Below are positions 36 to 37,814 of a stretch of DNA of 64,000 nt, in pieces. The position numbers and the translations under genes were made by a program. Within the stretch, counting starts at the first letter, position 1, and each line of letters begins with the position of its first letter. This DNA is from Candidatus Nitrospira nitrosa. GTDB lineage: Bacteria > Nitrospirota > Nitrospiria > Nitrospirales > Nitrospiraceae. Where the stretch lies: NCBI RefSeq assembly GCF_001458735.1, contig NZ_CZQA01000008.1, forward strand, positions 124,001-188,000, read 5' to 3'. The notes under the pieces are model-generated. The model was given only the letters and a program-made list of their open reading frames with translations, did not search any database and was not told the DNA's origin.

Positions 36-1175
36 CTATAAGAAGTTGTGATGCAACGGTTTACGTCCGCCTCCAGGTTGGATTCGGGCGATCCCCTTGG
101 CGTGGTTGTCCAACGCGACACTGACATAATGCTGAATCGGAAGGGTACCCATCATCGTTTGCGCATCGAACGCCGGTGATGCCAGATAATCCATGGCGCG
201 CCAGTACCGCGTCGACTTCCAGATATCCTTAAACCGCTCTTCGGTGAAGTTCCCGATGTGCAGCTTGGAGTAGCGCGCGTTAAAAAACATGCCGGATGGT
301 GCCACCAGGCCGCTCCCGCTGATCTGCAACAGAAACTGCGGCCCATAGAACCGCTGATAACTTGGCTTGTCGCCATCCTTGATCTTCGTCCACTTGACGA
401 TCACCTTCGTCTGTTCATTGCTCATGGCCTCGGCTTGCTCCAAGAGGTCGTGCAGACTCTCGTACTGGCTGTAATCGATCCCGAGCGTGCCCTGCTCATC
501 ATCCGAGCAATGTTTAATGACAGCGTAATCCGCTCCGAGATCAAGCCCGAGCTGGGCGAACGGAATGATTTCGTCCTTTAGGTGCGGCATCAGGACCATC
601 TGAATGCCGAGTGTGACGGGCAAATCCATTCGCCGCTTAAAATCAATGGCATGGCGGATATGTTCAATAGCACGATCAAATACCTGCGTATGTTCCGGCC
701 CCTTGTACATGATACTCGCGTAACTCTCAGGGCGACCCGCCGCCACTGTGAACCGTACCCACGTCAAGAAGGGGAGGACCTGTTCAATCTTCTCGGGTCC
801 CCACTCCCATGCATTCGTCGCATTCCCCACGTCGATGCCGAGCTTCGCCGCGTGTTGGATGAACGGCACGTACGCTTTCGACAACGTGCTCTCACCATCG
901 GACACAAGCGAGACACTTCGAATGCCGATGTCAGCAAAATCGTCGAGAAGGTTCAACGCATGCTGCGTACTGATGCTGCTGCGCGCCTGGGACTCCTGCA
1001 TCATTGCGTAACAGAATGAGCACATTGAACCGCAAGCACGAGTGAGAGACATGTCGACGCTGACAGGAGCGATTCTTGAACCGGCCTCCCATGCTTCAAC
1101 GCGATCGTAATGATAGGACAGTTTGTGCGAGTCGAGAATCAGAGCCCCTGCTCTGGTTTGAACAGCAGTCGTCAT
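36..1175 (-). CDS. Radical SAM protein A (degenerate C-terminal cluster domain)
   Basis: Radical SAM enzyme of 379 aa, last gene of the 7855-36 operon. The CX3CX2C motif that binds the catalytic 4Fe-4S cluster is at Cys48, Cys52 and Cys55, inside a normal radical SAM barrel. The N-terminus (DSHKLSYHYDRV) and overall layout match the radical SAM protein at 6755-7855, so the two are paralogues. In the C-terminal SPASM/twitch-like region the two align without gaps, but the four cysteines of the paralogue are Tyr277, Met296, Thr340 and Thr344 here, so an auxiliary cluster is unlikely. Its start overlaps the upstream 112-aa gene by 4 nt (ATGA), implying translational coupling. The substrate is unknown; a sugar or glycan intermediate is inferred from context. 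Confidence 0.85.
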   Translation of the reverse strand: MTTAVQTRAGALILDSHKLSYHYDRVEAWEAGSRIAPVSVDMSLTRACGSMCSFCYAMMQESQARSSISTQHALNLLDDFADIGIRSVSLVSDGESTLSKAYVPFIQHAAKLGIDVGNATNAWEWGPEKIEQVLPFLTWVRFTVAAGRPESYASIMYKGPEHTQVFDRAIEHIRHAIDFKRRMDLPVTLGIQMVLMPHLKDEIIPFAQLGLDLGADYAVIKHCSDDEQGTLGIDYSQYESLHDLLEQAEAMSNEQTKVIVKWTKIKDGDKPSYQRFYGPQFLLQISGSGLVAPSGMFFNARYSKLHIGNFTEERFKDIWKSTRYWRAMDYLASPAFDAQTMMGTLPIQHYVSVALDNHAKGIARIQPGGGRKPLHHNFL

Positions 1176-1510
1176 GCTTTCACCTCGATTCCGCGAAGAT
1201 TGCGGAGTGAATTTCTATCCCCTAGCGCTTCAACCCATACGGTCAACCCGCCATCCACGGCCGATTTGATATAGGCCTCGAAATCCAATAGCACGGTTCC
1301 TCGATCACCCGCCGAGAGAGGCTCGTTGAGTTGTACGATGACCTGACCATCATCTTTAGCCGCAACGATCACCAGCAACCTCCGGAACTGTTCCTTACCG
1401 GCGACCATCGCTTTCTCCAAACTGGACAGACGCTCTGCTTCGGACCGTATCACCCATTCGGGAGCAGGCATAGGGGTCTCGACATTGGCATGGAGCAGAT
1501 TACCTCCCAT
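1172..1510 (-). CDS. Small conserved-looking protein of unknown function
   Basis: Protein of 112 aa that I do not recognise. I chose the ATG at 1510 because a G-rich Shine-Dalgarno (GGGGGG, about 6 nt upstream) precedes it and it lies 28 nt after the E1-beta stop; the longer open frame would run into that gene. The protein has no membrane segment or signal peptide. A predicted helix near residues 20-45 (rich in Glu, Leu, Arg) is followed by an alternating hydrophobic stretch (LLVIVAAKDDGQVIVQL), suggesting a small alpha/beta fold. It sits between E1-beta and radical SAM protein A and overlaps the latter by 4 nt, so it is probably co-expressed. A partner role for one of them is only a guess. 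Confidence 0.6.
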   Translation of the reverse strand: MGGNLLHANVETPMPAPEWVIRSEAERLSSLEKAMVAGKEQFRRLLVIVAAKDDGQVIVQLNEPLSAGDRGTVLLDFEAYIKSAVDGGLTVWVEALGDRNSLRNLRGIEVKA

Positions 1511-1538
1511 GGATTCCCCCCTTGTTGGACAGACACGG

Positions 1539-2627
1539 TTAAAACGGACCGGAGAACTCGCGATTGGGAGCATCGTGCGGTCCTTTGCGAACCAGCCCGG
1601 CAGACATTCTCCCGTAACCATCCGCCTCTTTTGTTTTGCCCATAAGGTCGAGAGCTGCATCGGCAATTGTTTGAGGGCCTGGGTAGTAATCCTCGGCCAT
1701 AAAAGCAGACGTCGGGGTCGGAAAGTCTGGGGAAGCGATCCGGACCGGAGGCGCCTTCAGAAACGAGAACGCCTGCTCGACAACCTGGCTGATCAGTTCA
1801 CCGGCGATGCTGCCGGTCCGAAATGCCGTATCCGCAACAATGAGACGGCCCGTTTTTCGAACCGAAGTGAGTACGCTTTCCACATCGAGCGGGCGTACGG
1901 TCCGCATGTCGATGACATCCAACCCAATTCCCATTTCCATCGACATTGATTTCGCCGCAATCAATGCTTCAAGCGCCATGTACGAAAACGCTGCTACCGT
2001 CACATCGGATCCCTCATGCAGGGTCCGCGCTTGACCGATAGGAACCCGATAGTAGTAGTCCGGCACATTATCCGAGACGTGATGAAGCCATCGATGTTCG
2101 ATGAACAGAACCGGATTGTCGTCTTCAATAGCGGCAATCATCATGCCTTTTGCGTCATGAGCCGTGGTCGGCATGACAACCTTAAGTCCCGGTACCATCG
2201 CAAACATGGCTTGCAGGCTCTGAGAATGCTGAGGCCCCTGCCCCCACCCTCGTCCCACAATCATCCGAACCACCATCGGAACCGACGCTTTTCCATTAAA
2301 CATGTAGTGCCATTTGGCGGCGTTGTTGACAAGCTGGTCCATGGCCAACAAAGCGAAATCAATGCGCTGATGGATCATGACCGGCCGGATACCAGACAAT
2401 GCCGCACCGATACAGGCCCCGGTAAGCCCGTTTTCCGACAGCGGCATATCGAACACCCGACGCGCTCCATACTTTTGACGCAACCCGGACGTGGTGTTGA
2501 AAATCGCTTTCGGATCAGGAACCCCCTCACCGATCACGATGACGCGCGAATCCTTCTCCATCACCTGATCCAGGCTTTCGCGTATGGCTTCAGCAAACGT
2601 CAGTTGACGCTCCGCGACATCACGCAT
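1539..2627 (-). CDS. Thiamine-diphosphate enzyme E1 beta subunit (2-oxoacid dehydrogenase/transketolase-like)
   Basis: Beta subunit (362 aa) of a thiamine-diphosphate E1 component, of the pyruvate/acetoin dehydrogenase type. It contains the transketolase pyrimidine-binding domain (about residues 6-185; GEGV, then FDMPLSENG) and a transketolase C-terminal domain (about 200-325; IDMRTVRPLD). The start at 2627 has a good ribosome site (GGAGAAGG) and lies 8 nt inside the alpha-subunit gene, so the two are coupled. No E2 acyltransferase or E3 dihydrolipoamide dehydrogenase is nearby. The pair may therefore run a TPP carboligation or decarboxylation on a sugar instead of classical oxidative acyl transfer (inference). 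The C-terminal ~40 residues extend beyond the conserved domain. Confidence 0.85.
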   Translation of the reverse strand: MRDVAERQLTFAEAIRESLDQVMEKDSRVIVIGEGVPDPKAIFNTTSGLRQKYGARRVFDMPLSENGLTGACIGAALSGIRPVMIHQRIDFALLAMDQLVNNAAKWHYMFNGKASVPMVVRMIVGRGWGQGPQHSQSLQAMFAMVPGLKVVMPTTAHDAKGMMIAAIEDDNPVLFIEHRWLHHVSDNVPDYYYRVPIGQARTLHEGSDVTVAAFSYMALEALIAAKSMSMEMGIGLDVIDMRTVRPLDVESVLTSVRKTGRLIVADTAFRTGSIAGELISQVVEQAFSFLKAPPVRIASPDFPTPTSAFMAEDYYPGPQTIADAALDLMGKTKEADGYGRMSAGLVRKGPHDAPNREFSGPF

Positions 2628-3600
2628 ACACCTTCTCCCAGGCATCCTTGATAGTCGGTTTGCTGCTCGCCAGGGCAAATTCGAATGCGGCGGATACTTC
2701 TTCCCGAATCTGAGCCTCGATCCCAGTACAGGCTTGCTGATCGAGACAGCCGCTCTGCATTAAGACTTTCTTGTACCGATCAATCGGGCAATTATTCAGA
2801 CCCGATTCAATTTCCTGTACAGATCGGTACTTGAGATGGTCATCGAAATCAGGCCCGCAGTGTTCTCGCCATCGGTAGGCATCAAACTCCAAGAACTGCG
2901 GTCCGCGCCCATTGCGAGCATTTTCTACTGCTGTCCGTACGAGCGAGCTAACCATCTCCACATCATTGCCGTCTGCCGCGACAGCGGGCATGCCGTGGGC
3001 CTCGGCAATCCGATAGATGGGACGATTGGGCTGGCGTTCGTCGCGGCGGGTATATACGGAAAAATCGTTGTTCTCGCAGACAAAAACGATCGGCAACCGG
3101 TGTAATGCCGAGAAATTCAGCGATTCATGCACCACACCTTCCTCAAAACACCCATCACCCAAGAAGCTCACCGTAACATCAGGAGTTCCTTTGAGCGAGG
3201 CGGCCCACGCGGAACCAACTGCTAACGGAACCGTCCCACCGACAATCGGCGTGGCGCCCATAAATCCGACATCCAAATCAACGAGATGCATGGAGCCTCC
3301 CCGGCCTCCACAGCAACCTGTCACACGGCCATACAGCTCAGCGACCATCGCACTGAGATCACCACCTTTGGCCAGGTAGTGACCATGCGCGCGATGATTG
3401 CTGAACACTTTATCCTCTTTGCGCAGGGCGGCACACACACCGACGGCAATAGCTTCTTGTCCGATACACAAGTGCATCGGGCACCGCATCATCTGTTCGG
3501 CATAACGAGTCGCCAGCGCTTCCTCGACCCGCCTGATACGGAGCATGGCATTGAACAAGCTCCTCCTGGTATGGTCATACATCGGCAACCGTCCCCTCAA
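2620..3600 (-). CDS. Thiamine-diphosphate enzyme E1 alpha subunit
   Basis: Alpha subunit (326 aa) of the same E1 heterotetramer. The thiamine-diphosphate/Mg motif is intact: GDG at 148-150 and the closing NN at 177-178. The flanking signature (GGRGGSMHLVD at about 98-108) is typical of pyruvate/acetoin dehydrogenase E1 alpha. The gene starts immediately after the stop of the kinase-nucleotidyltransferase gene at 3601, so it belongs to the sugar operon. A second ATG six codons in (3582) is possible. With beta it should form the complete TPP site. Nothing in the sequence tells which 2-oxo acid or keto sugar is bound. Confidence 0.88.
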   Translation of the reverse strand: MRGRLPMYDHTRRSLFNAMLRIRRVEEALATRYAEQMMRCPMHLCIGQEAIAVGVCAALRKEDKVFSNHRAHGHYLAKGGDLSAMVAELYGRVTGCCGGRGGSMHLVDLDVGFMGATPIVGGTVPLAVGSAWAASLKGTPDVTVSFLGDGCFEEGVVHESLNFSALHRLPIVFVCENNDFSVYTRRDERQPNRPIYRIAEAHGMPAVAADGNDVEMVSSLVRTAVENARNGRGPQFLEFDAYRWREHCGPDFDDHLKYRSVQEIESGLNNCPIDRYKKVLMQSGCLDQQACTGIEAQIREEVSAAFEFALASSKPTIKDAWEKVYA

Positions 3601-5124
3601 TTATTTCAGCAAGGTCGATACGTATTTTTTTAGCGCAACGGGATCAATCGGTTCACGATTACACACGATTTGCACATCCATCGCCGCTGCCACGCTTCCC
3701 ACAAAGGCGGCGACTTCGCTTGGAAACCCTCTGCCGAGGCAGAGCGACGTTAAAGAAAGGAGAGCATCCCCCGCACCGATACGGTCAATCACTCGGGATG
3801 ACAGAGCCGGCACTTTGTGAAACACGTTTTCCTTGGCGTCAAACATCATCATCCCTTTGGTCCCACGCGTGATCGCCAAATGACCGGCACTGATATTCGC
3901 GGCGATGGATTCAGCGACCTTCTCCAATGGATCATGCCTATTGTGTGCCGCCAACCGCAGCTCCGGCTCGTTCAGCGACGCAAAACTTGCTGAAGGGTAC
4001 CGATTGATGACGTGATAACCCCTATTCCCACTATTGATCTGCGTATTGACCGCAAGAAACCGCGACTTGGCACACAGCAATCGAACCATATCGTTGGAAA
4101 TAAACCCATTGCCGAAATCGGCAACTACAACGACATCAAATTTTGCAAGATGGTCGGTCAACCACTGGTGAATGTACGCTCCGGAATCCTCCAACATCGG
4201 CTCGTCATGAAAAAAGTACACCTCGAAGAGCTTTGAGAGATCACTGTCGACAAACCGTCTTTTGGTGACTGTCGGCGCATTCTTGAAATACGAAAAGATC
4301 GGTGTAATGTTCTGATGCAACTTCTCTCGGATGAACCCCTCATGACTCTGGGTGTCACCCAACCCCGCAACCAAGGTCACCGATTTGGCAAATCGAGCGA
4401 TATGGTTGGCAACCGCCATCGAGCCACCCGCAAATTGCTCCTCGGTGTCATACTGCACGGCCAGCACATTGCCCTTCCCGGTCTGTCCCAATGGGGACAC
4501 ATAATGATACTGATCGATGATGGCGTCACCGACAACCAATACATTGAGCGTATCAAGGACCTCGACCATACGGTGGATTTCACGATCAGGCCACTTCTCA
4601 CGAAACCGATCAAGATAGTCCTTGGTATCGGGACTGAACACCCCGAAATGTTCGTTCAGCAGACTGCTGGAGCTAAATGTGATCTCATCGGTGTAAAAGA
4701 TTTCACCGCCATGTGCCTGCACGGCCTCCTGCTCATGAATGATGTTTCCCGTCACATCATTGCCATGAGAGCGATACTCGCTTCCCTTGGCGTAGACGCT
4801 CGGCTTGATTTGATGCAGGGCGTCGACAGCAGTCACGGCATGGTTGATCGCGACGAAATCAACGCACTCCAATGCCGCGAGATTTTCGGCCCGTAGCAGT
4901 TCGTTAAAGATCGGACGACCAGGCCCCTTGTTGACGTATGCATCCGCGGTCACCGTCACAAGGAGGACATCGCCTTCTTTTTTCGCGCGTTGCAGATAGC
5001 GAATATGTCCGGTATGCATGAGGTCGAAGGTGCCATGACATAGAACGACACGTTTACCCTGCTCCCTGAATTCGTGGGATTGGCCTGCGAGTTCATCTAG
5101 GCTGAGAATCTTTCTACTCGACAT
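3601..5124 (-). CDS. Bifunctional nucleotidyltransferase-PfkB sugar kinase (HldE-like, domains in swapped order)
   Basis: Two-domain enzyme of 507 aa. The N-terminal half is a cytidylyltransferase-like domain (GTFDLMHTGH at 31-40, the HxGH nucleotide site). The C-terminal half is a PfkB/ribokinase kinase (about 190-505) with the GAGD motif at 450-453, Asp453 being the likely catalytic base. Both activities occur in HldE of ADP-heptose synthesis, which adds a 1-phosphate and then a nucleotide to heptose 7-phosphate, but HldE has the kinase first. Neighbours are a GmhA-like isomerase (6 nt upstream) and an epimerase, which supports a nucleotide-heptose or related nucleotide-sugar product. The nucleotide used and the sugar are not decidable here. 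Confidence 0.85.
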   Translation of the reverse strand: MSSRKILSLDELAGQSHEFREQGKRVVLCHGTFDLMHTGHIRYLQRAKKEGDVLLVTVTADAYVNKGPGRPIFNELLRAENLAALECVDFVAINHAVTAVDALHQIKPSVYAKGSEYRSHGNDVTGNIIHEQEAVQAHGGEIFYTDEITFSSSSLLNEHFGVFSPDTKDYLDRFREKWPDREIHRMVEVLDTLNVLVVGDAIIDQYHYVSPLGQTGKGNVLAVQYDTEEQFAGGSMAVANHIARFAKSVTLVAGLGDTQSHEGFIREKLHQNITPIFSYFKNAPTVTKRRFVDSDLSKLFEVYFFHDEPMLEDSGAYIHQWLTDHLAKFDVVVVADFGNGFISNDMVRLLCAKSRFLAVNTQINSGNRGYHVINRYPSASFASLNEPELRLAAHNRHDPLEKVAESIAANISAGHLAITRGTKGMMMFDAKENVFHKVPALSSRVIDRIGAGDALLSLTSLCLGRGFPSEVAAFVGSVAAAMDVQIVCNREPIDPVALKKYVSTLLK

Positions 5125-8392: not shown

Positions 8393-9049
8393 TCATCGTT
8401 TGTTCTCGCTGTCTTGCGCAATCTTCGTAGACGAGACAAAACCACGTCGCATCAATTCGTCGATTACCCGTCTCGCACAGATCTCAAGAGATTCGGCTCC
8501 CGTCCTGACAATAAGTTCAGGTGTTTCCGGCGCTTCATAGGGAGAACCGATTCCGGTGAATTGGGAGATTTGTCCGGCTCTGGCCTTTTTGTATATACCT
8601 TTCACATCGCGTGATTCGCAAATTGTGATAGGTGCATCGCAATAAATCTCGATAAAGTCTCCTTGCGCAACCATGCCGCGCACCCGTGCTCGGTCGGCAC
8701 AGTACGGCGAGATGAATGCGGTGAGAACGATCACTCCCGCTTCCATAAACAGCTTCGCCACTTCCCCAATGCGTCGGATATTTTCATGGCGGTCGTGAGG
8801 TGAAAATCCCAAATCACCACAAAGCCCATGGCGCACATTATCTCCATCAAGCACAAACGTTTGGCACCCAGCTTGATGGAGGATCGCTTCGACCGCGTGT
8901 GCCAACGTCGATTTCCCTGCCCCCGACAACCCGGTAAACCAGATAATTCCACCACGATGGCCGTTTTGCGCTTCTCGGAGTGTGCGTGTCACTGTGGCAT
9001 AGTGCCAGACAACATCTGATGATGTTGGGTGAGAGGACCTACCGCTCAT
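8393..9049 (-). CDS. cysC: Adenylylsulfate (APS) kinase
   Basis: APS kinase of 218 aa, which phosphorylates adenylylsulfate to PAPS, the sulfate donor of sulfotransferases. Walker A is GLSGAGKST at 40-48, followed by the family signatures DGDNVRHGL and SPYEAPE. No ATP sulfurylase (cysD/cysN or sat) is in the window, so APS must come from elsewhere. Its place at the 3' end of the polysaccharide locus, with a sulfotransferase at 35116-36297, suggests PAPS supply for glycan sulfation rather than cysteine synthesis (inference). It differs clearly from the second CysC-like kinase at 33572-34123. Confidence 0.92.
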
Positions 9050-27062: not shown

Positions 27063-28046
27063 TTATCGTTTCCTAAACTGTAGGACTAAACAGTCCTTTT
27101 CACGAAACGGAGATTCGATCACGCGCAACAGGAACATCAATAGGTAACGCATCGACGCTGCATCCAACCAATTTCGGTGCCAATCCAATCGGAATTCCTT
27201 TGAATAGAGAGCCGCCTTAAGATTCAGTCGGAACCACGATTCCGGTGTCCGGCTCCACGCCAGGAGCAGATCAAACCCATACTGGTTCGCCAACTTCTTC
27301 ATTGCGTCACGCGTGTAATGAAAGAGATGAAATGGCGCAAACCATCCACTGACCCAATTGCATCCGAATACTTTTCGCCATATGCTGGCGGCATTGGGCA
27401 TGGCAAGATACAGCATCCCGCCATTTCTCAAGATCCTCGAAAGTTCCTGAAAAAACCCATGAGGGTCACGAAGATGCTCAAATACCTGCATGAGGTAGAC
27501 GATATCGAACTCACCCGATGGAAACGGAATATGAGAAAAGTCTTCCACCTTCTTCACATCGTAGCCATGTTTCCGACATGCTTCGACCGTATACGCCGCG
27601 ATCTCTGCTCCCGAGATTGCCACTCCGCGATGATGGAAATCACTCAGGTATCCGGCATGACCGCACCCATAATCAAGGACTCGCGCCCCCGAAGGAACCT
27701 CTACGAAATCCCGTGGGTCCACATCGCCACTGACCCAATGAAACAGCTTTCTGAGGTTCGGATAGCGTGACCCCGCCCTCTGCGAGAAATCGATTTGGTT
27801 ATCTTGTGAATAGGCATGGTAATACGAGGCCAATTGGTCGTCCGTCGGGAGTGGCACCATAGAAATGACCGTGCACTTTTGACACTCGGCAACTCGCCAC
27901 ACCCCAGGCAACCCCTTCCGTCTATCGCTCAGAAGAACCCCTCCGGTACTATCCAGTGCCTTTTCATAACAAACGGGGCAGCCAAGACCGATAGGAGGCA
28001 TCTGGATGGAACCCGCTTGCCCTGCTTGTGTTTCAGAAACAATCAC
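27063..28046 (-). CDS. Class I SAM methyltransferase with N-terminal zinc-ribbon motif
   Basis: Methyltransferase of 327 aa. An N-terminal CX2C ... CX2C pair (GCPVC at about 23-27; ECQKC about 55-59) looks like a zinc ribbon. It is followed by the SAM domain, with RVLDYGCGHAGYL as motif I and IVYLMQVFEHLRDP. Similar zinc-ribbon methyltransferases occur at 28087 and 41588, and the type is common in sugar C-methylation clusters. The gene lies 40 nt after the 28087 gene and is likely co-transcribed with it. Confidence 0.82.
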   Translation of the reverse strand: MIVSETQAGQAGSIQMPPIGLGCPVCYEKALDSTGGVLLSDRRKGLPGVWRVAECQKCTVISMVPLPTDDQLASYYHAYSQDNQIDFSQRAGSRYPNLRKLFHWVSGDVDPRDFVEVPSGARVLDYGCGHAGYLSDFHHRGVAISGAEIAAYTVEACRKHGYDVKKVEDFSHIPFPSGEFDIVYLMQVFEHLRDPHGFFQELSRILRNGGMLYLAMPNAASIWRKVFGCNWVSGWFAPFHLFHYTRDAMKKLANQYGFDLLLAWSRTPESWFRLNLKAALYSKEFRLDWHRNWLDAASMRYLLMFLLRVIESPFREKDCLVLQFRKR

Positions 28047-28993: not shown

Positions 28994-29716
28994 TTACGTC
29001 CCTTCCCCATATATTGCTAAATCCTCTGCGCTATCCACTTCGCCCCACTCTCCTGCGTACGGCAATGCACGGACTTTGACTCCATACCCTATGATCAGCC
29101 GTTGTAACATCCCTGTCATATCCAGCTTATCGCACAGTGTCGAAACCAGTCCTGCACGCAACGATTCGACTTGTCGCCACGAGCCTGGAGTGAATCGCAA
29201 CAGCCCCATATATTGGCCTTGGACATCCTCGATATGCTTAGGCTTCTGTCCTATTTCAAGCAGATCACCATTGTCATCTATTCGGAAGGTTTCCGCATCT
29301 GATAGCGGATCTTCAAAACGGTCCTCCCATAACGCGCGCCAATTCCGATCATAGGTTATTGCCAATTCGGCATTCGCATCCATCAACATTCGTACGGCAC
29401 TGGCATCATAAAAAATGTCCGAATAGCTCACCACACAGGGTACGCTTTTCAACCATTCCTGCGCACAGGCGAGGGAACTAACCATGTTAGTCTCAGCCCA
29501 GCGCGGGTTGTCGAATGGCGTGAGGGCAAACCCTTCGAGCATTTCTTTGCGATACCCCCGTACAATGCCAATTTCAGTAATTCCAGCTCCCTGCAGTGCC
29601 GAAATTTGCCATTGCAGTAGCGTCTTTCCGCGTAGCTCCACCATGCATTTGGGGCGTTCGTCCGTTAAGTATTTCATGCGGCTGCCCCGACCGGCAGCGA
29701 GAATAATGGCTCTCAT
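28994..29716 (-). CDS. Cytidylyltransferase, probable CTP:phosphoglutamine cytidylyltransferase (Cj1416-like)
   Basis: Nucleotidyltransferase of 240 aa with the signature AIILAAGRGSRM at the N-terminus, KCMVEL and VVSYSDIFYD. Proteins of this type are often called phosphocholine cytidylyltransferases. In C. jejuni Cj1416 transfers CMP to the phosphorus of N-phosphoglutamine to give CDP-L-glutamine. The assignment here rests on the neighbours: GATase, glutamine kinase, methyltransferase and CDP-amidate kinase genes all lie upstream in the same orientation. The ATG at 29716 is preferred; a GTG one codon earlier is possible. The sequence alone cannot exclude phosphocholine. Confidence 0.8.
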   Translation of the reverse strand: MRAIILAAGRGSRMKYLTDERPKCMVELRGKTLLQWQISALQGAGITEIGIVRGYRKEMLEGFALTPFDNPRWAETNMVSSLACAQEWLKSVPCVVSYSDIFYDASAVRMLMDANAELAITYDRNWRALWEDRFEDPLSDAETFRIDDNGDLLEIGQKPKHIEDVQGQYMGLLRFTPGSWRQVESLRAGLVSTLCDKLDMTGMLQRLIIGYGVKVRALPYAGEWGEVDSAEDLAIYGEGT

Positions 29717-29859
29717 CACAATTCCATCTCAAGTGAGAGGACGCTGGTCACAGAAGCAGCGGACAGTGCCATGTTCGGGTCCCTGTCAAAACGGTTCAGA
29801 CCCTCTCGAGTCCACGCCACACTGCACGCCGAGCAAGCCCGGGCATTTCCAGCTACCAC

Positions 29860-30498
29860 CTACCCCTGAATCAATGCTTGAAATCTGTTCATATCTGGGG
29901 GTGAAAAGGTGCTTTCACGTTCGGGATGCCACATCCAGCCTTCCCATGGCAGGACCTCATGACGCATAGCCTCAATCGTCCCGTCTTCAGCGCGGGCCAT
30001 TACCACAAACCCCGGCGGGCAATCGGCCAAAGCAACATTATGGAAACTATTCACCTCGTCCGGCCACTCACCAGAGATTGCTACTATTTGCAAGTGATGA
30101 CGGGTACGCACATGACCACTCACCGATATGAGGCTGCCATTCGCCCACACCGCCATCATCTGCATTCCCCGGCAGATTCCCAACGTAGGCAACCTTTGGT
30201 CCTTAGCATAGGCCAGCAAACAATGCTCGGTGCTGTCACGCTCAGGAACTTCACCGATATCATTGCCGCCTGAAAGCAACACGGCATCTGGATTTATGGC
30301 AAATAACCAATCTTGTAACCCCATCCTGTTATCATCGCGTTTAGCCCTTGGCATGAAGATATTGGGTACTGGTACTGGGATACAGCCGCTAGCCGTCAGC
30401 CACTGACACAACCGCTGATCCACTGCATCGCGCCGCTCGCCCCGCTCTGCCCATACATCAACCCTCTGGCTCACAGCCACTTTCAACCCCGTGCTCAA
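29860..30498 (-). CDS. Class I glutamine-amidotransferase-fold hydrolase, probable gamma-glutamyl-CDP-amidate hydrolase (Cj1417-like)
   Basis: Class I GATase fold, 212 aa, with the catalytic triad visible: Cys109 (LGICRGMQ), His191 and Glu193 (MWHPERE). In the C. jejuni capsule pathway the equivalent Cj1417 hydrolyses CDP-L-glutamine to cytidine diphosphoramidate and glutamate. I set the start at the TTG at 30498, which overlaps the kinase stop (TTGA) and has GGAGG 7 nt upstream, so the gene is coupled to the glutamine kinase. No synthetase partner subunit is present, which argues against an ordinary amidotransferase role. Confidence 0.82.
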   Translation of the reverse strand: MSTGLKVAVSQRVDVWAERGERRDAVDQRLCQWLTASGCIPVPVPNIFMPRAKRDDNRMGLQDWLFAINPDAVLLSGGNDIGEVPERDSTEHCLLAYAKDQRLPTLGICRGMQMMAVWANGSLISVSGHVRTRHHLQIVAISGEWPDEVNSFHNVALADCPPGFVVMARAEDGTIEAMRHEVLPWEGWMWHPERESTFSPPDMNRFQALIQG

Positions 30499-32819
30499 GC
30501 CAGTACCTCCACCCGGCGCCCGGCGCAATCCACGTGCAGACGAGTAGCCTGTGACCAACGCCGATATAGCATCTCTCCAGCACCGATGACGGCGGGTAAG
30601 CCCATTTCACCGGCACGGATTGCCATATGTGAATTAGCTCCACCCCAAGCCGTAATCAGCCCGGCTATGGGACAAGCAAATAACCAGTCGAACCCAGGAT
30701 CGGCATTAGGGATACAGACAATCGCACCGACCAGTTTCTCGCGCACATTACATCCCGCAATTGGAGCCGTGACCTGCTTTTGAGTTATGAAATTGGGCGA
30801 CGCTTCCGGCAATTCAAATGCCCACACATCTTCCGGTTGCGCGATTACAGGGGGCAGGGAAAGAGCAAGCGTCTCGCTGTAGCGAGCCGCTCCTTCCTCA
30901 ATGGAGCGAGCAAGGAGGCCCTTTGGATCAGCAGCCGCCACATGGAGTTCCCTGAATACCGCAATGTCGCAGTAAGCAAGACTCTCCTTCGAAAATCCCC
31001 ATTCCGCTCCACAACTGGACACCAAGGCGAGAACATCGGACAGGTTACGGGTGAAATGAAACTTTGCCAATTCTCTCAATTCAATTCCAGCTTGCAGGAA
31101 ATTGAACAATTCAACAGGATTTGACTGCAGACCGTGGGCTTCCAACAGTTGTACTATCTCGCGCATCTGCGGCAATGTCATTGAGAAAGGTTCAGCGGTC
31201 TCTTCCAATGAGGGACGTTGATCCCAGTCAAAATACAACTCTGGCGCCTCATCATAGCGAGGCGACAAAATGTCATAGGTCCCAGGTCGTAAATGTCCGT
31301 AGCGCGCCAGAAAGGTGGCTTTGTCTAGGATTGCCCGGTCTCTGCCCAATTGGCTACTGACAGTGGACACACTCGCCATAAACGAATCGTAATCGGATTG
31401 TGCAAGTATCCCGACCGTAACCAACGATTTGAGCATTTGTATGGCGACAAAGCCTGCCCGCGCTAACCCGGCAAATGGCAAGGTCCCGTAACGTTTGGCG
31501 TCTTCCAGCAACCAATAGATTCGCTCCAGTGGGTCCGAGCTAGAAGAGAGTAGTTGCTCTCGGCGTTGTTTGAGAATATCCAATTTGGCAGCATCGGATC
31601 GCCACAAACCATCTTGCGGATGTACGATGCGGTTCGTGAGGGTTCGAAGGCTATCGGCAATGGTCTTTTGTTCCTCGGCTGAGAATCTCGCTTCCGTTAG
31701 GCGCTCAAGACGTGCCGGCAGATCCAATGTGTAGCATGAAAACACAATCTCGAACTCCACCTTGTCATGCAGAGTGGGCTCGTCTAACAATCGGTCGATG
31801 TAATAATCCACCAGACGTCCGGCCAGTTTCTCGTCCAAATCCGCCGGAATGAATGAATTGAAGGACAGCCTCACATCGATGTAGGGCAACCCGAAGAAGT
31901 GCGGCATCAGCGGGAAGCTACGCAGGTTCCGGTAACCATAGTTATTCCGCTGATATGCCCAAATGGCATCTGTCACTAGCTCGCGGTACAGTGACAACGC
32001 AAGCGGCTTAGGACGCACTCCGATAATTTCGGCAGGGTTCCAATCCGGCATCACACCATAGACTGTGCGCCGCCCCATCAGAAAAGGATGCGGACGCATC
32101 CCGCGTGCTACTTTGTCGGCGATCAATGTAATCCTCTGCGCCTGCACTTCAGGCAACTGACCGGCTGCTGGCATGACCAATGGACGCACCTGCAAGAGCC
32201 ATAGGGTATCCGTATCATTTTTATGGGTGACAGCAAACTCGCAATCCAGCGGTACACCGTCAAACAGCGTCAGCAATTCATCCAACAAAGCCACCGTGCC
32301 ACCCAATTCACGTGGAGGCGGAAACGGGGACAAAGCCGCACCCTGCCATATTCTTCCGTTATACCCTCCCGTCACCCTGGCAGTATCTGATCCTTCGGTC
32401 CAGTTCACCACTCGATAGGATGCGCACGTATTAGGATCATGGGAAAACGCCACCCCAGATCGGACAACGTGTTGCAACATGGGCTGTATCAGCACTTCAT
32501 CGGCATCGACGGCTGCCCCATACGAGGCAATCACTTGCTCGATCGCGCGCTCCAGCCCTTCCGCCGGCACGTCCCGCAAGGTCAGATAAGCCCCGGCATT
32601 GGATCTGCTCGTACCGTCTTCCAGTTGGCAACTAGAGCGCACAATCCATGGAGCAGCACCCAGCGAAGCAGAAACCTGTGCGAGACAACTTCCGCGATCC
32701 CGCCGCCAGTCGGCCACGGTGAACTGCACAAGTCGTGCGATACGGGCAGACTTCAGTCTATGCTGTACCTGCGCCAACGTTCCAGCTTTGGTGGTGAATG
32801 TGAGGATCCTGGATGCCAT
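30495..32819 (-). CDS. PEP-synthase-like kinase, probable L-glutamine kinase (Cj1418-like)
   Basis: Protein of 774 aa. The N-terminal third is a PPDK-type ATP-binding domain (WIVRSSCQLEDG near residue 58; LQVRPLV near 230). A middle region without clear family follows, then a C-terminal PEP-utilising phosphohistidine domain (GLITAWGGANSHMAIRAGEM) with catalytic His731. The PEP-binding TIM barrel of true PEP synthase is missing, as in Cj1418, which phosphorylates the amide nitrogen of glutamine. AAGG precedes the ATG at 32819. Its position between the methyltransferase and GATase genes makes the glutamine kinase role likely. Confidence 0.85.
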   Translation of the reverse strand: MASRILTFTTKAGTLAQVQHRLKSARIARLVQFTVADWRRDRGSCLAQVSASLGAAPWIVRSSCQLEDGTSRSNAGAYLTLRDVPAEGLERAIEQVIASYGAAVDADEVLIQPMLQHVVRSGVAFSHDPNTCASYRVVNWTEGSDTARVTGGYNGRIWQGAALSPFPPPRELGGTVALLDELLTLFDGVPLDCEFAVTHKNDTDTLWLLQVRPLVMPAAGQLPEVQAQRITLIADKVARGMRPHPFLMGRRTVYGVMPDWNPAEIIGVRPKPLALSLYRELVTDAIWAYQRNNYGYRNLRSFPLMPHFFGLPYIDVRLSFNSFIPADLDEKLAGRLVDYYIDRLLDEPTLHDKVEFEIVFSCYTLDLPARLERLTEARFSAEEQKTIADSLRTLTNRIVHPQDGLWRSDAAKLDILKQRREQLLSSSSDPLERIYWLLEDAKRYGTLPFAGLARAGFVAIQMLKSLVTVGILAQSDYDSFMASVSTVSSQLGRDRAILDKATFLARYGHLRPGTYDILSPRYDEAPELYFDWDQRPSLEETAEPFSMTLPQMREIVQLLEAHGLQSNPVELFNFLQAGIELRELAKFHFTRNLSDVLALVSSCGAEWGFSKESLAYCDIAVFRELHVAAADPKGLLARSIEEGAARYSETLALSLPPVIAQPEDVWAFELPEASPNFITQKQVTAPIAGCNVREKLVGAIVCIPNADPGFDWLFACPIAGLITAWGGANSHMAIRAGEMGLPAVIGAGEMLYRRWSQATRLHVDCAGRRVEVLA

Positions 32820-32828
32820 ATGCTTGCC

Positions 32829-33575
32829 TTACACTAATTGAGCAACCCAAATGTTGGTGGAGTACGGAATGCGGATGGTAGCTTGACCCAGCCCTCTTAG
32901 GTACTCCTCAATGGCCTGAACAACCTTTGGGAAATTTGCGCCAGCCTGGCGTGCTAAGGTTGCATGGGATCGCCACGCCTCCACACATTCCTCGATGGAT
33001 TGCTCGTGTACCACACTGGCATCCACATGCACCACTGGGCCAAACAAACCGCTTTCCTCAATCACCGTTGTCTGATTTTCCCGGCGTGTACCATAGCCAT
33101 AACCCGCCACCAACGCTTTGATAATGGATTCGATACGGTCCTGAATCGGATCATCCAATTGACGATGGTTCCACATACACGCAAACCAGCCATTCTGCTT
33201 GAGGATACGGGCAGTTTCCTTAAGAGCCAACTGACGATCACATACATTGAATGAACTGCCAAAGGTGACCATATGGAACGACTGGTCTGTTTGGCCCGTC
33301 TGTTCACCCGTGCCCTCAAACCAGCGTACATTGGGTAACAATGCGGTGCGCTTGATTCCGTTAGCACGCATCGCGTTATTGGGTTCCACTGCTGTGACAT
33401 CAAATCCTCGAACCGCTAGCATCAACGTCAGATGAGCCACTCCAGCCCCGACGTCACAGATCGCACCCGACTTGAGACTGGCAATGGACAACATGGCATT
33501 TATAGCTGGATCCGCATAATCTGGGCGCTTGAGATAGGCATTCGCCAACGTGGTGTAATCCCATTCAGTTTTCAT
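32829..33575 (-). CDS. SAM-dependent methyltransferase of the phosphoramidate set (Cj1419/Cj1420-like position)
   Basis: Class I methyltransferase of 248 aa, with motif I AICDVGAGVAHLTLML and the acidic tail of motif II (TAVEPNNAMR). It lies between the glutamine kinase and the CDP-amidate kinase genes and overlaps the latter by 4 nt (ATGA). In C. jejuni two methyltransferases (Cj1419, Cj1420) act on the phosphoramidate; which step this one performs, and whether a second is needed, is unknown. Confidence 0.78.
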   Translation of the reverse strand: MKTEWDYTTLANAYLKRPDYADPAINAMLSIASLKSGAICDVGAGVAHLTLMLAVRGFDVTAVEPNNAMRANGIKRTALLPNVRWFEGTGEQTGQTDQSFHMVTFGSSFNVCDRQLALKETARILKQNGWFACMWNHRQLDDPIQDRIESIIKALVAGYGYGTRRENQTTVIEESGLFGPVVHVDASVVHEQSIEECVEAWRSHATLARQAGANFPKVVQAIEEYLRGLGQATIRIPYSTNIWVAQLV

Positions 33576-34123
33576 CGAAAGTTTTCCCTCTTGAGATGTT
33601 TCATAAACTCTTCCGCCACTGCATCAACCGATTTCGATGGGTCAAATTCAAGAACCCAATCTGCCGATTCAGGCTCATCGATGGGCAAGTCCAGTCCAGC
33701 CACATCTGAAAGTTCACCGGCATCGAAACGCCGGTATATACCTTTAGGGTCACGGCGACGAAGTTCTTCCACCGGCACTTTTAGATATACCTCAAAATAG
33801 CCAGGCAGGTTTGCCCGATTCCAAACATGGATTTCACGGAACAGGGAGATAGTGGCAATCACCACCGTCACCCCTTGTCCAGCGATGATTCGGCACAAAT
33901 GTGCATACTGAAAGGCCAGGGCCAACCGTCCTTCTCGTCCATGGTTCTTGGCATTGGCCGCCGTCGCGCCAAATACATCGCGTAACTCATCTCCATCTAA
34001 AAATACAACCACTTCTCCACTGACACGCAGCTGCGCAACAATCTTGCCTGCCAGCGTTGTTTTCCCGGCTCCTGAAAGTCCCGTGATCCAATATACTGCC
34101 GCCTGCTTCACACGTTGTACCAA
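33572..34123 (-). CDS. CysC-like kinase, probable cytidine-diphosphoramidate kinase (Cj1415-like)
   Basis: P-loop kinase of 183 aa with Walker A GLSGAGKTT at 15-23. It resembles APS kinase but departs from CysC at key signatures: DGDELRDVFG instead of DGDNVRHGL, and the SPYEAPE segment is missing. In C. jejuni Cj1415, long annotated as APS kinase, phosphorylates the 3'-hydroxyl of cytidine diphosphoramidate. I placed the start at the TTG at 34123 because AAGAGG lies about 7 nt upstream. The IS30 element begins about 18 nt upstream, so the original promoter or operon link may be lost. Confidence 0.8.
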   Translation of the reverse strand: MVQRVKQAAVYWITGLSGAGKTTLAGKIVAQLRVSGEVVVFLDGDELRDVFGATAANAKNHGREGRLALAFQYAHLCRIIAGQGVTVVIATISLFREIHVWNRANLPGYFEVYLKVPVEELRRRDPKGIYRRFDAGELSDVAGLDLPIDEPESADWVLEFDPSKSVDAVAEEFMKHLKRENFR

Positions 34124-34201: not shown

Positions 34202-35146
34202 ATGCTCTCAACAGCTGAACGTGCAACCGTCAGTCTAGGGCTCGCCCAAGGGCATTCGCTCCGAACCCTGGCGCGGATTTGGGGACGGGCCCCGAGCCCT
34301 GTGAGCCGCGAGGTCGCTCGGAACCCGATACCCGACTGTCCCTCCCGGGCCTGTACGACGCAGCACCACGCAGATATTCGAGCTCACCGCCCACGGCGCC
34401 TTCGCAAACTCCGTGACCCATGGTTGTGGCCGTCTGTCTGGACGCACCTGACGGCGGGCTGCTCATCTGAGCAGATTGCGGGACGTCTGCATCGCCGGTA
34501 TCCTGACGACATGAGCAAGTCGCTGTCTGCTGAAACCATCTAGGCAGGACTGTAGGTGCTGCCACGTGGCGCCTTGCGGACTAAATGGTTGACAGCCCTG
34601 CGCCAGGTGCGTAAGACCCGTCGACCTCGGGCGCGTAGGAAGGACCGACGCGGCCACTCGTGCAGTGCCGTGGCACTGGGAGGGCGACCGCCTCAAGGGA
34701 GCGCAGAGTGGTTCGACCGTGGGCACCCTGGTGGAACGGACGCCCCTCCTGATCCTACTGGCTCGCATGGACGGGACGGCTGCCACGAGAGCTTACCAGG
34801 GCTTCACGAAGATGCTTTGGCATGTCCCTACCCCACTGCGGAAAATGCTGACCTATGATCGGGGGGAAAGAGATGGCGGAGCCTGAGCGGGTAGCGAACC
34901 GCCTCTCGCTCCAGGTGTACGCTGCCGATCCGCACAGCCCCGGCAACACGGGCCCAACGAGACGACCAATGGCTTGCTGCGCCAATACTTGCCAAGGGCA
35001 CTCCTCTCTCCACATCCACCCAGAGTGACCTGACCGCCATCGTGCATCAGCTCAATACGCGCCCACGAAAATGTTTGAACTTTGCGACGCCTCTGGAGGT
35101 TGACGCGCAGTGGCGTCAGTATTCACTCGTTGCACTTGGAACTTGA
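34202..35146 (+). pseudogene. IS30-family transposase, inactivated
   Basis: The reading begins LSTAERATVSLGLAQGHSLR, a classic IS30 helix-turn-helix, and continues through SSEQIAGRLHRRYPDD. Two in-frame TAG codons (34541 and 34556) stand where conserved tyrosines are expected (ETI*AGL*VLPRGALR). A deletion near 34640-34665 removes about 20 residues and shifts the frame. The next segment reads WHWEGDRLKGA, GTLVERT and LTYDRG (DDE domain). After more shifts near 34870-35000 the C-terminus ADPHSP ... NGLLRQYLP ... NTRPRKCLNFATPLEV can be followed to a stop at 35144-35146. It cannot make an active transposase. Confidence 0.88.
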
Positions 35147-36297
35147 TACCCCCTCCTTTTTAAAAGATTCCTGCACCGCCTCAGAGAGCCCCTCACACTT
35201 GAAGGAAGCTGGATATCATGTTTTTCCATAGCACGAACGATTCTCCACCAGGGCTTGACGGTATGCCGCCTGACCAGTCCTTGGATTTTTCGAATACCAT
35301 CACCTTCTTTAATCCCGAGCATCAACTCTTCTAACCCCTTCAATAGCACAAATGTTTCATATCCGGATAAGCCGGATCTTTTGAGCATATCCTCGTCCAG
35401 CGACAAAACAAACTGGAGGGCTTGAGTTCTATTTGCCGAAATATCCGCGCCATCGCTTTCAGCGCGCCAAAAGTTTGGCGCAACCGGAAGGTGCTTATAA
35501 AAGCCAAGCACACTGGCATGAGGCATGTAATTTTTCTTGGCGACTTCCATCTGTTGCTCATAGCCAAAATATGCAAGCAATCTACCTGCACCTTCGGCAA
35601 TTCTCGTGATATTCGCCGTCTCATCCGAAGATTGCCACGTACCGACTTGACTGGCCCGATTGATCAACTCCGTATCTTCAGGATGCTGCTCCCGATATTT
35701 CTTTTCAGCAGTGGCAGCTTTCTCAAACGTAGAGTTTTCCAGCGCATCCACAATTTCACGGTCTTCGGCTTGAATTCCCACAAAGTGCAGGACATCCCTG
35801 ATCGTACGATCGGCGTCCCGTTTGTAATCTTCGAAGCGAAAACGCCTGACATTTGACTGCTGTAGCCAGACTTCGTTGAACAGACACCATGTATCGATCT
35901 TATTGCGCAAGGTGTATGGATCCGGAAAATCTAGAAACTCGCCGAAATCCATTTCCGGCAATTCGCGACGATAACGGGACAACAGCGCGTCACGCGGATC
36001 ACGCACGAAATATATGATCCGATGCGCTTGATGCCTAGCGGTCGGCCATTGATGTGCCCACTCAATCTCGATATCTTTGCGGAAATTAAACGTATGTCGT
36101 GAGCTAAGAATCGGAAGCCATTTTTTCAATCTGACTTCAGCTGGGTTAAGCGTATAGCCTTCCGACTTGAAACGTTCCCACATGACACCCATAGTCTCTC
36201 GGTATGTCTTTATGCCAAGTTCAAGAAAGCAATTGATTAACCATGTGGCCCCTGACGGCTCACGCGGGGAAATGAGGTACAGTTTTTCCGGCTTCAT
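35116..36297 (-). CDS. Sulfotransferase, 3' end rewritten by IS30
   Basis: PAPS-dependent sulfotransferase family protein of 393 aa as read. The 5'-phosphosulfate loop is SPREPSGATWL (10-20) and the 3'-phosphate site is YFVRDPRDALLSRYR (96-110). It probably sulfates a sugar of the glycan, with PAPS from the cysC product. The IS30 right end (to 35146) lies inside the coding frame: the last ~10 codons (QVPSATSEY) and the stop come from IS DNA. The native C-terminus is therefore lost, although the catalytic domain is intact. Activity is not certain. Confidence 0.82.
   Translation of the reverse strand: MKPEKLYLISPREPSGATWLINCFLELGIKTYRETMGVMWERFKSEGYTLNPAEVRLKKWLPILSSRHTFNFRKDIEIEWAHQWPTARHQAHRIIYFVRDPRDALLSRYRRELPEMDFGEFLDFPDPYTLRNKIDTWCLFNEVWLQQSNVRRFRFEDYKRDADRTIRDVLHFVGIQAEDREIVDALENSTFEKAATAEKKYREQHPEDTELINRASQVGTWQSSDETANITRIAEGAGRLLAYFGYEQQMEVAKKNYMPHASVLGFYKHLPVAPNFWRAESDGADISANRTQALQFVLSLDEDMLKRSGLSGYETFVLLKGLEELMLGIKEGDGIRKIQGLVRRHTVKPWWRIVRAMEKHDIQLPSSVRGSLRRCRNLLKRRGYQVPSATSEY
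35128..35146 (-). repeat. IS30 right terminal inverted repeat
   Basis: Right end of the IS30-type element, overlapping both the transposase stop and the C-terminal codons of the sulfotransferase. Its inner 13 bases are the exact complement of the left repeat core. Confidence 0.8.
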
Positions 36298-36317: not shown

Positions 36318-37814
36318 TCAAGAACTATGGCCAAGCCAACCCGTGGAAACTCTCATGATACGAATCGACAACGGTTCCAACATAAGCCAGCACAGAAATA
36401 TTGCAGCAATCACGCTCTCCACAATCAGAACACCTGTGAGATCAGTAATGAAGTAACCAACGAGCGCAGCACACACGGAAACTGTGAGCAGTAATGTAGC
36501 ACGCACCGCCACTCTTTGAATTTCCTGTTTGAATCCCACAATACCACCAATCATTTGGACAAACCGATGGTATTCAGCCCACGCGTTGTAGGCTGTGGTT
36601 AGCGATAACCCGATCCCTGCACCCCAAAGACCCAAAAATGGAATCAAGGTCAATGATACGATACAGTTGAGCACCGCTAGATTCAGATGCATCCGAAAGA
36701 TAAAGCCTAGATCACGAATTCCAATCAGAGCGCTGTATAGAGGGCCGGCGAAGATGATCCCGATGCTGGACGGAATGAGAGTGACGTAGAAGACTGGTAG
36801 ATAGTCCATTTCACCTCTCAGCCAATACCGTGAAACGAACACCATTAATACGCAGCCAATACCATGCATCAAGATGGCGGGGATTAGTCCGTAATGCACC
36901 ACCTTGAGGTAGTCGTTGCCCCCCTCAATACTCAACTTACTCGACAATTGCAGAAACGTACGACATGCCCCTCCAAAGAGTCCTCGGATGCCCACAACTA
37001 TTTTCATGGCAACTTCATAGGTGGAAACACTTGTCGGCCCAACAAATCGGTTAAGCAAGAATTTATTGAACGGGTCGAAGAATATGTTGACCAGATTCGC
37101 CCCCTGCAACGCGACGCCCTGATTCAATAAACCAGGAAATAATCTAATTGTTTCGGCTGATGGCTTGAATGAGCTCAGATGTTTCATCCTCAAGCGCACC
37201 CAAGTGGCCAGCAACAAGTCGATTACGCCACCTGCCAGCATAAATTTCCCAATACCAACGATGTTCAGCTTATGGGAAGAGTAAGAGCTAAACACAATCA
37301 AAGTAAAAACTGCTGGCGGGCCGAATAGTTGCGCCTGGGCCGCAAGGTCGAACCGGCCTAAACTCTCAATGACAGCCACATGACCGGCTCCTAGTATCTG
37401 ACAAATCGCGATAAGCACGACGATCACAAGCAACTGTGAAAGTTGACTTTCGACTAGAATATCGCCCCCCCAGTAAATAAAGGTATGCAGGAAAGGCTGT
37501 CCGAGGAGGAACGCGGCGGAACCAAGAATGGCCACGCCTACTAGCGTCACCGTCCACACAGCAGAAAATAGGATGTCTAAACCGTGCCCTGAGTCGGGCT
37601 GACGCTGTAACTCGGCAGCATGCGTAACAGCAATGGTATGTATGCTGTTGAGTAAGGCCACATAAAACGCCGTGATTGACAGCATGAGGGTCAAGTAACC
37701 ATATGAAACCGCTCCGGCTAGATTGATCGCCAAAAGGAGATTACCCAATCCGAATAGGAGGCGAACCACCGCCGAAACTCCTCCCCATGAGGCATTCCTA
37801 AACAAATTTGGCAT
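36318..37814 (-). CDS. O-unit flippase, Wzx/MATE-like (MOP superfamily)
   Basis: Polytopic membrane protein of 498 aa with about 12-14 transmembrane helices spread along the whole length and no soluble domain. The N-terminus (FRNASWGGVSAVVRLLFGL) is like other polysaccharide flippases that move undecaprenyl-linked units across the inner membrane. It is the first structural gene after the UpxY-type regulator. Wzx sequences diverge widely, so the repeat unit it moves cannot be told. More AT-rich than its neighbours. Confidence 0.8.
   Translation of the reverse strand: MPNLFRNASWGGVSAVVRLLFGLGNLLLAINLAGAVSYGYLTLMLSITAFYVALLNSIHTIAVTHAAELQRQPDSGHGLDILFSAVWTVTLVGVAILGSAAFLLGQPFLHTFIYWGGDILVESQLSQLLVIVVLIAICQILGAGHVAVIESLGRFDLAAQAQLFGPPAVFTLIVFSSYSSHKLNIVGIGKFMLAGGVIDLLLATWVRLRMKHLSSFKPSAETIRLFPGLLNQGVALQGANLVNIFFDPFNKFLLNRFVGPTSVSTYEVAMKIVVGIRGLFGGACRTFLQLSSKLSIEGGNDYLKVVHYGLIPAILMHGIGCVLMVFVSRYWLRGEMDYLPVFYVTLIPSSIGIIFAGPLYSALIGIRDLGFIFRMHLNLAVLNCIVSLTLIPFLGLWGAGIGLSLTTAYNAWAEYHRFVQMIGGIVGFKQEIQRVAVRATLLLTVSVCAALVGYFITDLTGVLIVESVIAAIFLCWLMLEPLSIRIMRVSTGWLGHSS

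Follow-up and report, generated by a model that had tools for sequence, protein, structure and literature searches.

A 64,000-nucleotide stretch of the Candidatus Nitrospira nitrosa genome (contig NZ_CZQA01000008.1, positions 124,001 to 188,000; referred to here as the window) contains, on its minus strand at positions 28994-34123, five genes that very likely encode a pathway for the synthesis of a phosphoramidate donor. The system can be regarded as a variant form of the route to O-methyl phosphoramidate (MeOPN) known from Campylobacter, with its own methyltransferase, other candidate transferases and a wide range among bacteria, and the phosphoramidate is likely to end up on a surface glycan.

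The published background given here is taken from passages of the papers cited. In Campylobacter jejuni, the donor is described as cytidine diphosphate (CDP)-phosphoramidate 3'-phosphate, made from glutamine, ATP and cytidine triphosphate (CTP) by Cj1415-Cj1418; the modification is lost on deletion of Cj1421 or Cj1422, and knockouts of Cj1419 and Cj1420 are described as having no apparent effect on the capsule, their function being unassigned (PMC11800397). Cj1418 has been shown to be a glutamine kinase (PMC10971088), and the phosphoramidate group has also been seen without the methyl (PMC9561416). The glutamine kinase was called specific to C. jejuni in a 2022 review (PMC9561416), and a 2019 review states that MeOPN had so far been identified in Campylobacter only (PMC6429109).

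The five-gene module and its setting

The five-gene set proposed in the first-pass annotation is present in full as open, intact open reading frames (ORFs), and the roles agree with Pfam and NCBIfam matches. In the order of transcription, and with nucleoside triphosphate abbreviated as NTP, phosphoenolpyruvate as PEP, S-adenosylmethionine as SAM and glutamine amidotransferase as GATase, the genes are:

33572-34123, minus strand: CysC-like kinase, proposed CDP-amidate 3'-kinase (Cj1415 role); PF01583 91.6 bits, NF004041 214 bits, TIGR00455 95 bits (cut-off 138.7)
32829-33575, minus strand: class I SAM methyltransferase, proposed phosphoramidate O-methyltransferase; Methyltransf_11 1.3e-11
30495-32819, minus strand: L-glutamine kinase homologue (Cj1418 role); NF004508 965 bits (cut-off 501), PPDK_N and PEP-utilizers mobile domain
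29860-30558 (ORF; start placed at TTG 30498), minus strand: gamma-glutamyl-CDP-amidate hydrolase homologue, class I GATase fold (Cj1417 role); NF045546 85 bits (cut-off 250)
28994-29719, minus strand: NTP transferase, proposed CTP:phosphoglutamine cytidylyltransferase (Cj1416 role); PF12804 5.6e-18

Coupling of the genes by 4-base overlaps, as claimed earlier, holds at two of the four junctions, namely kinase/methyltransferase (33572-33575) and glutamine kinase/hydrolase (TTGA, 30495-30498), and fails at the other two, which are gaps of 9 and 140 bases. The surface-polysaccharide setting was likewise borne out: the window carries genes for deoxythymidine diphosphate (dTDP)-rhamnose, a Wzy_C ligase, several glycosyltransferases, a 3-deoxy-D-manno-oct-2-ulosonic acid (Kdo) transferase, family 9 heptosyltransferases and an ABC transporter, together with a PfkB/cytidylyltransferase fusion that we read as HldE. 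The source genome gives two matches of 330 bits to PF02461 (ammonia monooxygenase), which fits a complete ammonia-oxidizing (comammox) Nitrospira.

Linkage of the module across bacteria

A scan of GTDB returned at least 569 stretches encoding a relative of the glutamine kinase, some of which may be other PEP-utilizing enzymes, and the best 80 were kept. Together with ten plasmid or phage loci, one viral contig, a locus from the same genus and the window itself, they make up a set of 93 loci (numbers with the prefix L; the repeats L001-L003 were left out), which leans to close relatives and in which the window and L014, from the second genome of the genus, are near-copies. Within 8 kb of the glutamine kinase, the hydrolase is found in 87 of the 93 loci, the cytidylyltransferase in 86, the CysC-like kinase in 78, the methyltransferase in 68 and all four in 64, some of the absences being contig ends and the kinase count being generous, because four module kinases branch with the adenosine 5'-phosphosulfate (APS) kinases (see below). 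The gene order of the window is the commonest one among these loci. The CysC-like kinase and the glutamine kinase share a single open frame in six loci (L074, L076, L081, L082, L083 and L085), and in L013 the glutamine kinase is fused to the hydrolase (652-3687, 1011 amino acids) with the other module genes absent; this locus was filed as a phage, is surrounded by ordinary bacterial genes and is, in our reading, a fragment of a gut Firmicute. L013 is the one phage record, and L095 the one viral contig, with a glutamine-kinase relative in the phage and viral collections; a single-protein query against the viral collection found no such relative.

The module occurs in Pseudomonadota, Verrucomicrobiota, Bacteroidota, Acidobacteriota, Bacillota, Cyanobacteriota, Nitrospinota and further phyla, and the recurrence of the gene set in so many phyla is far beyond chance. 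On annotated plasmids, its genes are labelled as PEP-utilizing enzyme, adenylyl-sulfate kinase, phosphocholine cytidylyltransferase and gamma-glutamyl-gamma-aminobutyrate hydrolase, and because of such generic labels the pathway has remained hidden there. That the methyltransferase belongs to the module is a new observation: in many phyla, its gene separates that of the CysC-like kinase from that of the glutamine kinase and, in the window, overlaps the former, as described above.

Several loci depart from the common arrangement. On an Agrobacterium vitis plasmid (L010:9914-15003), the glutamine kinase, hydrolase and cytidylyltransferase occur without the CysC-like kinase, and after them come genes for a LysE-family translocator and a CDP-alcohol phosphatidyltransferase, an arrangement suggestive of a phosphoramidate pathway that ends in another product. 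Glutamine kinases without other module genes were seen in L011:9947-12310 (a Cupriavidus plasmid, near nif genes) and L012:7986-10310. Two Prochlorococcus genomes have module genes, in L040, which starts at a contig end, and in L059, where a sulfotransferase-type gene adjoins on the opposite strand. In six Pseudomonas-type loci (L049, L050, L053, L056, L058 and L067), two genes that we take to be flgK and flgL stand immediately upstream of the module, a neighbourhood that looks like one for flagellin glycans.

The CysC-like kinase is distinct from APS kinases

The window also encodes a true APS kinase, so that both kinds of kinase can be compared within it:

8393-9049, minus strand: true APS kinase; PF01583 222 bits, TIGR00455 259 bits (above the cut-off of 138.7)

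The TIGR00455 scores of the two, 259 and 95 bits, fall on either side of the cut-off, and the motif DGDELRDVFG, noted earlier in the module kinase, was located there. After the removal of near-copies, 47 of the 78 kinases from module loci and 22 of the 25 genomic ones made up a kinase tree of 69 rows; eight genomic kinase finds were left out as module kinases found again. When the window kinase was forced among 17 APS kinases, the placement was rejected by the approximately unbiased (AU) test (p-AU 1.2e-7), at a cost of 91 log-likelihood units. These 17 are the 22 genomic rows less L097, L099, L114, L116 and L124, chosen after viewing an earlier tree, and of those set aside L114 and L116 score above the APS kinase cut-off. 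A single clade of all genomic kinase rows was neither shown nor rejected (p-AU 0.226).

The alignment tells the two groups apart in a similar manner. Each site of the motif D-R-x-E-N-x-R-R is kept by 13 to 17 of the 17 APS kinases, whereas of these sites only the first arginine is retained by the module kinases (47 of 47), which have sites of their own, for example C74 (46/47), Q80 (44/47), W98 (44/47), N99 (44/47) and Y106 (47/47). The module kinase is related to CysC by family and, by analogy, in serving a 3'-phosphorylated nucleotide donor, but it lacks most of the motif, sits on a separate branch and has cytidine as the proposed nucleotide of its donor. Placement within true CysC, which the first-pass annotation had named as a result that would count against its reading, was put to the phylogeny and failed, and a true CysC identity for the module kinase is rejected by the tree and by its TIGR00455 score.

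Glutamine kinase, hydrolase and cytidylyltransferase

The glutamine-kinase homologue was described in the first-pass annotation as a PEP-synthase-like enzyme lacking the PEP barrel, and this description is correct: besides PPDK_N and the PEP-utilizers mobile domain, neither the PEP barrel nor any further Pfam domain was found at E <= 0.001. Because no PEP barrel domain was found, a role in the phosphorylation of pyruvate is disfavoured, though no more than that. The protein scores well above the cut-off of NF004508, a model titled 'hypothetical protein' of which Cj1418 is presumably a member, and its His731, singled out earlier, is identical in all 91 loci in which the column is filled. The hydrolase triad Cys109/His191/Glu193 is equally constant (87 of 87 loci); its numbering is right when counted from TTG 30498, where the start is best set. 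NF045546, whose name refers to the hydrolase step, gives the top NCBIfam match for the window hydrolase and for ten of ten hydrolases from other glutamine-kinase loci (75-131 bits, all below 250). The alignments of the cytidylyltransferase and the methyltransferase contain many near-invariant sites; alignment A9, which was used for window numbering only, has one erroneous row (a glutamine-kinase fragment of L079). By sequence, the solved structure closest to the cytidylyltransferase is the CTP:phosphocholine cytidylyltransferase 1jyk, and its role was judged by context, that is, by its place beside the glutamine kinase in 86 of the 93 loci.

The earlier reading of the five genes as a route to a phosphoramidate donor is thus supported by family scores, catalytic residues, kinase phylogeny, gene order and fusions. 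The linkage, fusions, scores and kinase tree therefore point to a widespread phosphoramidate-donor module.

Candidate transferases

The region around the module contains the following further features:

35116-36297, minus strand: sulfotransferase-fold protein, candidate phosphoramidate transferase; PF00685 5.4e-11, 42.8 bits (cut-off 22)
34202-34858, plus strand: insertion-element remnant, IS30-like in our reading; HTH_38 3.8e-12 in ORF 34202-34543, no match in 34556-34858
36318-37814, minus strand: 498-amino-acid membrane protein, flippase-like by inspection; no Pfam or NCBIfam match, also in L014
28087-28962, minus strand: accessory SAM methyltransferase, downstream of the module; Methyltransf_23 1.5e-18
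27063-28046, minus strand: accessory SAM methyltransferase, downstream of the module; Methyltransf_23 7.3e-22

ORFs resembling the insertion remnant lie at the matching place in L014. The sulfotransferase-fold protein belongs to the family of sulfotransferases dependent on 3'-phosphoadenosine 5'-phosphosulfate (PAPS), and its relatives adjoin the module in L005, L014, L025, L036, L052 and L068. Among 295 genomes of the phylum, close kin (96-100%) were found only in the two with a glutamine kinase, and five others have relatives at 24-29%. More generally, the module often has a sulfotransferase-fold or a CDP-glycerol-phosphotransferase-like protein encoded beside it, likewise a new observation. 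Sulfotransfer_3 is the top Pfam family (14 matches) among 121 proteins flanking the module closely, where Sulfotransfer_1 and Glyphos_transf have seven each, whereas the 25 families listed for 125 proteins farther out include none of the three, which leaves at most three of each there. This comparison covers 121 of 207 near and 125 of 213 far candidate ORFs, called by a simple script with L014, L023, L030 and L055 left out, and 'near' means near any module-profile match within 8 kb, other NTP transferases being among these matches. With our own profiles, 25 sulfotransferase-type matches lie within 2 kb, two at 2-4 kb, one at 4-6 kb and none beyond, a count that is partly circular, the profiles having been seeded from near-module genes, that leaves out five single-sequence models and that includes five near matches (L046, L060, L065, L071 and L075) of only 23-46 bits. 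Of 22 genomes that were selected because a sulfotransferase-type gene lies close to their module, and then searched as a whole, three (L016, L025 and L092) showed no other sulfotransferase at E <= 0.001, in searches that missed some module-adjacent genes seen by single-protein scans (e.g. in L033, L045 and L059). A second sulfotransferase-domain protein lies about 7.5 kb outside the window (G000:C8:115949-116494).

The 50 Foldseek matches listed for a structure model of the 35116-36297 protein are sulfotransferases or retinol dehydratase, a relative of theirs, with TM-scores of at most 0.37 by query length. In its alignment, R-D-P-x-D-A-x-x-S, which we take to hold the 3'-phosphate in known sulfotransferases, is invariant in six of six rows, and the lysine of the 5' loop, which we assume to be a sulfotransferase feature, is absent from all four rows that cover the loop; the two together do not decide the donor.

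Proteins of another fold occur in module loci of other species. CDP-glycerol-phosphotransferase-like proteins (PF04464) adjoin the module in L007, L028 and L035 and lie about 2 kb from it in L019, L053 and L078, whereas none was recognised beside the module of the window. In nine Pseudomonas loci, a neighbour protein (A3) is related to the Glyphos_transf set (profile match E 3e-8); two members tried gave no Pfam match, and its model, a poor one with a mean predicted local distance difference test score (pLDDT) of 49.2, weakly resembles glycosyltransferase folds of the GT-B type. DUF2972 has been reported for a MeOPN transferase of the Cj1421/Cj1422 kind, in a sentence that is ambiguous on Cj1421 and Cj1422 themselves (PMC5808241). 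It was found in none of 36 genomes, the window's own included, and no control genome gave a match either, so the caution voiced earlier that transferases of the Cj1421/Cj1422 type were not recognised here stands. A limited literature search found no publication on phosphoramidate with a sulfotransferase and capsular polysaccharide.

A model for donor synthesis and transfer

In the proposed model, glutamine would be phosphorylated on its amide nitrogen by the 30495-32819 enzyme, the phosphorylated glutamine would be coupled to CTP by 28994-29719, and the coupled product would be cut to CDP-amidate by 29860-30498. Phosphorylation of the cytidine 3' position by 33572-34123 would then give a donor shaped like PAPS, from which the sulfotransferase-fold protein 35116-36297 may pass the phosphoramidate to a sugar residue, either in the O-antigen or in a different polysaccharide of the cell surface. 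A PAPS-type fold may have been recruited because the 3'-phosphorylated nucleotide donor resembles PAPS. The module methyltransferase (32829-33575), with a phosphoramidate species as its presumed substrate, would add an O-methyl on phosphorus, before or after transfer.

The system shares with the C. jejuni MeOPN pathway four enzyme roles, as judged by family, and a single surface-polysaccharide cluster. It differs in its order of kinase, methyltransferase, glutamine kinase, hydrolase and cytidylyltransferase, in its built-in methyltransferase, and in having an adjoining sulfotransferase-fold protein and no DUF2972 match (with silent controls). We take Cj1419 and Cj1420 to be methyltransferase-like. 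The substrates are probably the same as in C. jejuni, and the methyltransferase substrate, the transferase and the modified glycan are named here by inference. Taken as a whole, donor module, sulfotransferase-fold transfer and methylation together form the explanation to which we give a slight preference.

Several observations weigh against this explanation. The proposed equivalence to Cj1415-Cj1418 is drawn from published roles and from family models, C. jejuni being absent from the titles of the 80 loci kept and from the lists of PDB matches. The hydrolase stays below the NF045546 cut-off, and four of the 47 module kinases (L056, L062, L066 and L080) branch on the APS kinase side, in an earlier tree in which the rows L103, L108 and L121 were on the wrong strand. 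Within the phylum, glutamine kinases are rare: two of 295 genomes have one, that of the window and a second from its genus, with matching neighbours on both sides. The candidate transferase gene lies 1 kb upstream of the module, in the same direction and with the insertion remnant between them; its structure model is poor (mean pLDDT 55.6), and in 48 of the 93 loci, some of which end there, a search within 1.5 kb turned up none of the three kinds of candidate transferase.

Alternative explanations

The chances that the 35116-36297 protein is the phosphoramidate transferase are, in our view, little better than even, and the main rival, less probable but of real weight, keeps the donor module and makes this protein an ordinary PAPS sulfotransferase, with transfer left to a different gene, which may be among those of the locus that have no assigned role. 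PAPS would be supplied by the window's true APS kinase, which counts against our explanation too, 105 of the 295 genomes of the phylum have PF00685 proteins, so that these are common, and the second sulfotransferase-domain protein is encoded not far away. Many module loci have no sulfotransferase-type gene near them, and most of the 22 genomes hold further sulfotransferases, with 41 PF13469 matches in that of L036. Such a protein would not, however, explain why sulfotransferase-type genes are concentrated beside the module and not farther out in the same loci, or why no other sulfotransferase was found in the three genomes named above. A donor made without methylation, the methyltransferase acting on a sugar or another substrate, is about as probable as this rival and likewise less so than our explanation. 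It would agree with the absence of an apparent capsule effect in the Cj1419 and Cj1420 knockouts as reported (PMC11800397), with the group known in non-methylated form (PMC9561416), and with the 25 of 93 loci, some at contig ends, that have no such methyltransferase within 8 kb of the glutamine kinase; the position of the gene between kinase and glutamine kinase in many phyla, and its 4-base overlap here, speak for a role in the pathway instead.

A phosphoramidate destined for a small molecule or a lipid is improbable in the window, where the genes stand in a polysaccharide cluster and include the CysC-like kinase, even though the kinase-less Agrobacterium set, beside its translocator and phosphatidyltransferase, and the partnerless glutamine kinases of L011 and L012 would suit such a product. 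Hardly credible is an ordinary mix of a PEP synthase-like enzyme, a sulfate-assimilation kinase, a phosphocholine cytidylyltransferase and a gamma-glutamyl hydrolase with no common pathway: annotated plasmid relatives do carry such labels, and a phosphocholine enzyme is the solved structure closest in sequence to the cytidylyltransferase, but linkage, fusions, family scores and the kinase tree all disfavour it.

Implications

Beyond this locus, we tentatively suggest, with a probability somewhat short of even, that phosphoramidate on surface glycans is widespread among bacteria and that enzymes of the PAPS-sulfotransferase fold, and elsewhere CDP-glycerol-phosphotransferase-like ones, deliver it by using 3'-phospho-CDP-amidate instead of PAPS, so that transferases of unrelated folds would be interchangeable and draw on one donor module. 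Candidates can now be offered for two steps of the pathway, methylation and transfer. In Campylobacter, MeOPN is a phage receptor (PMC5808241), and this role of the phosphoramidate may extend to environmental bacteria.

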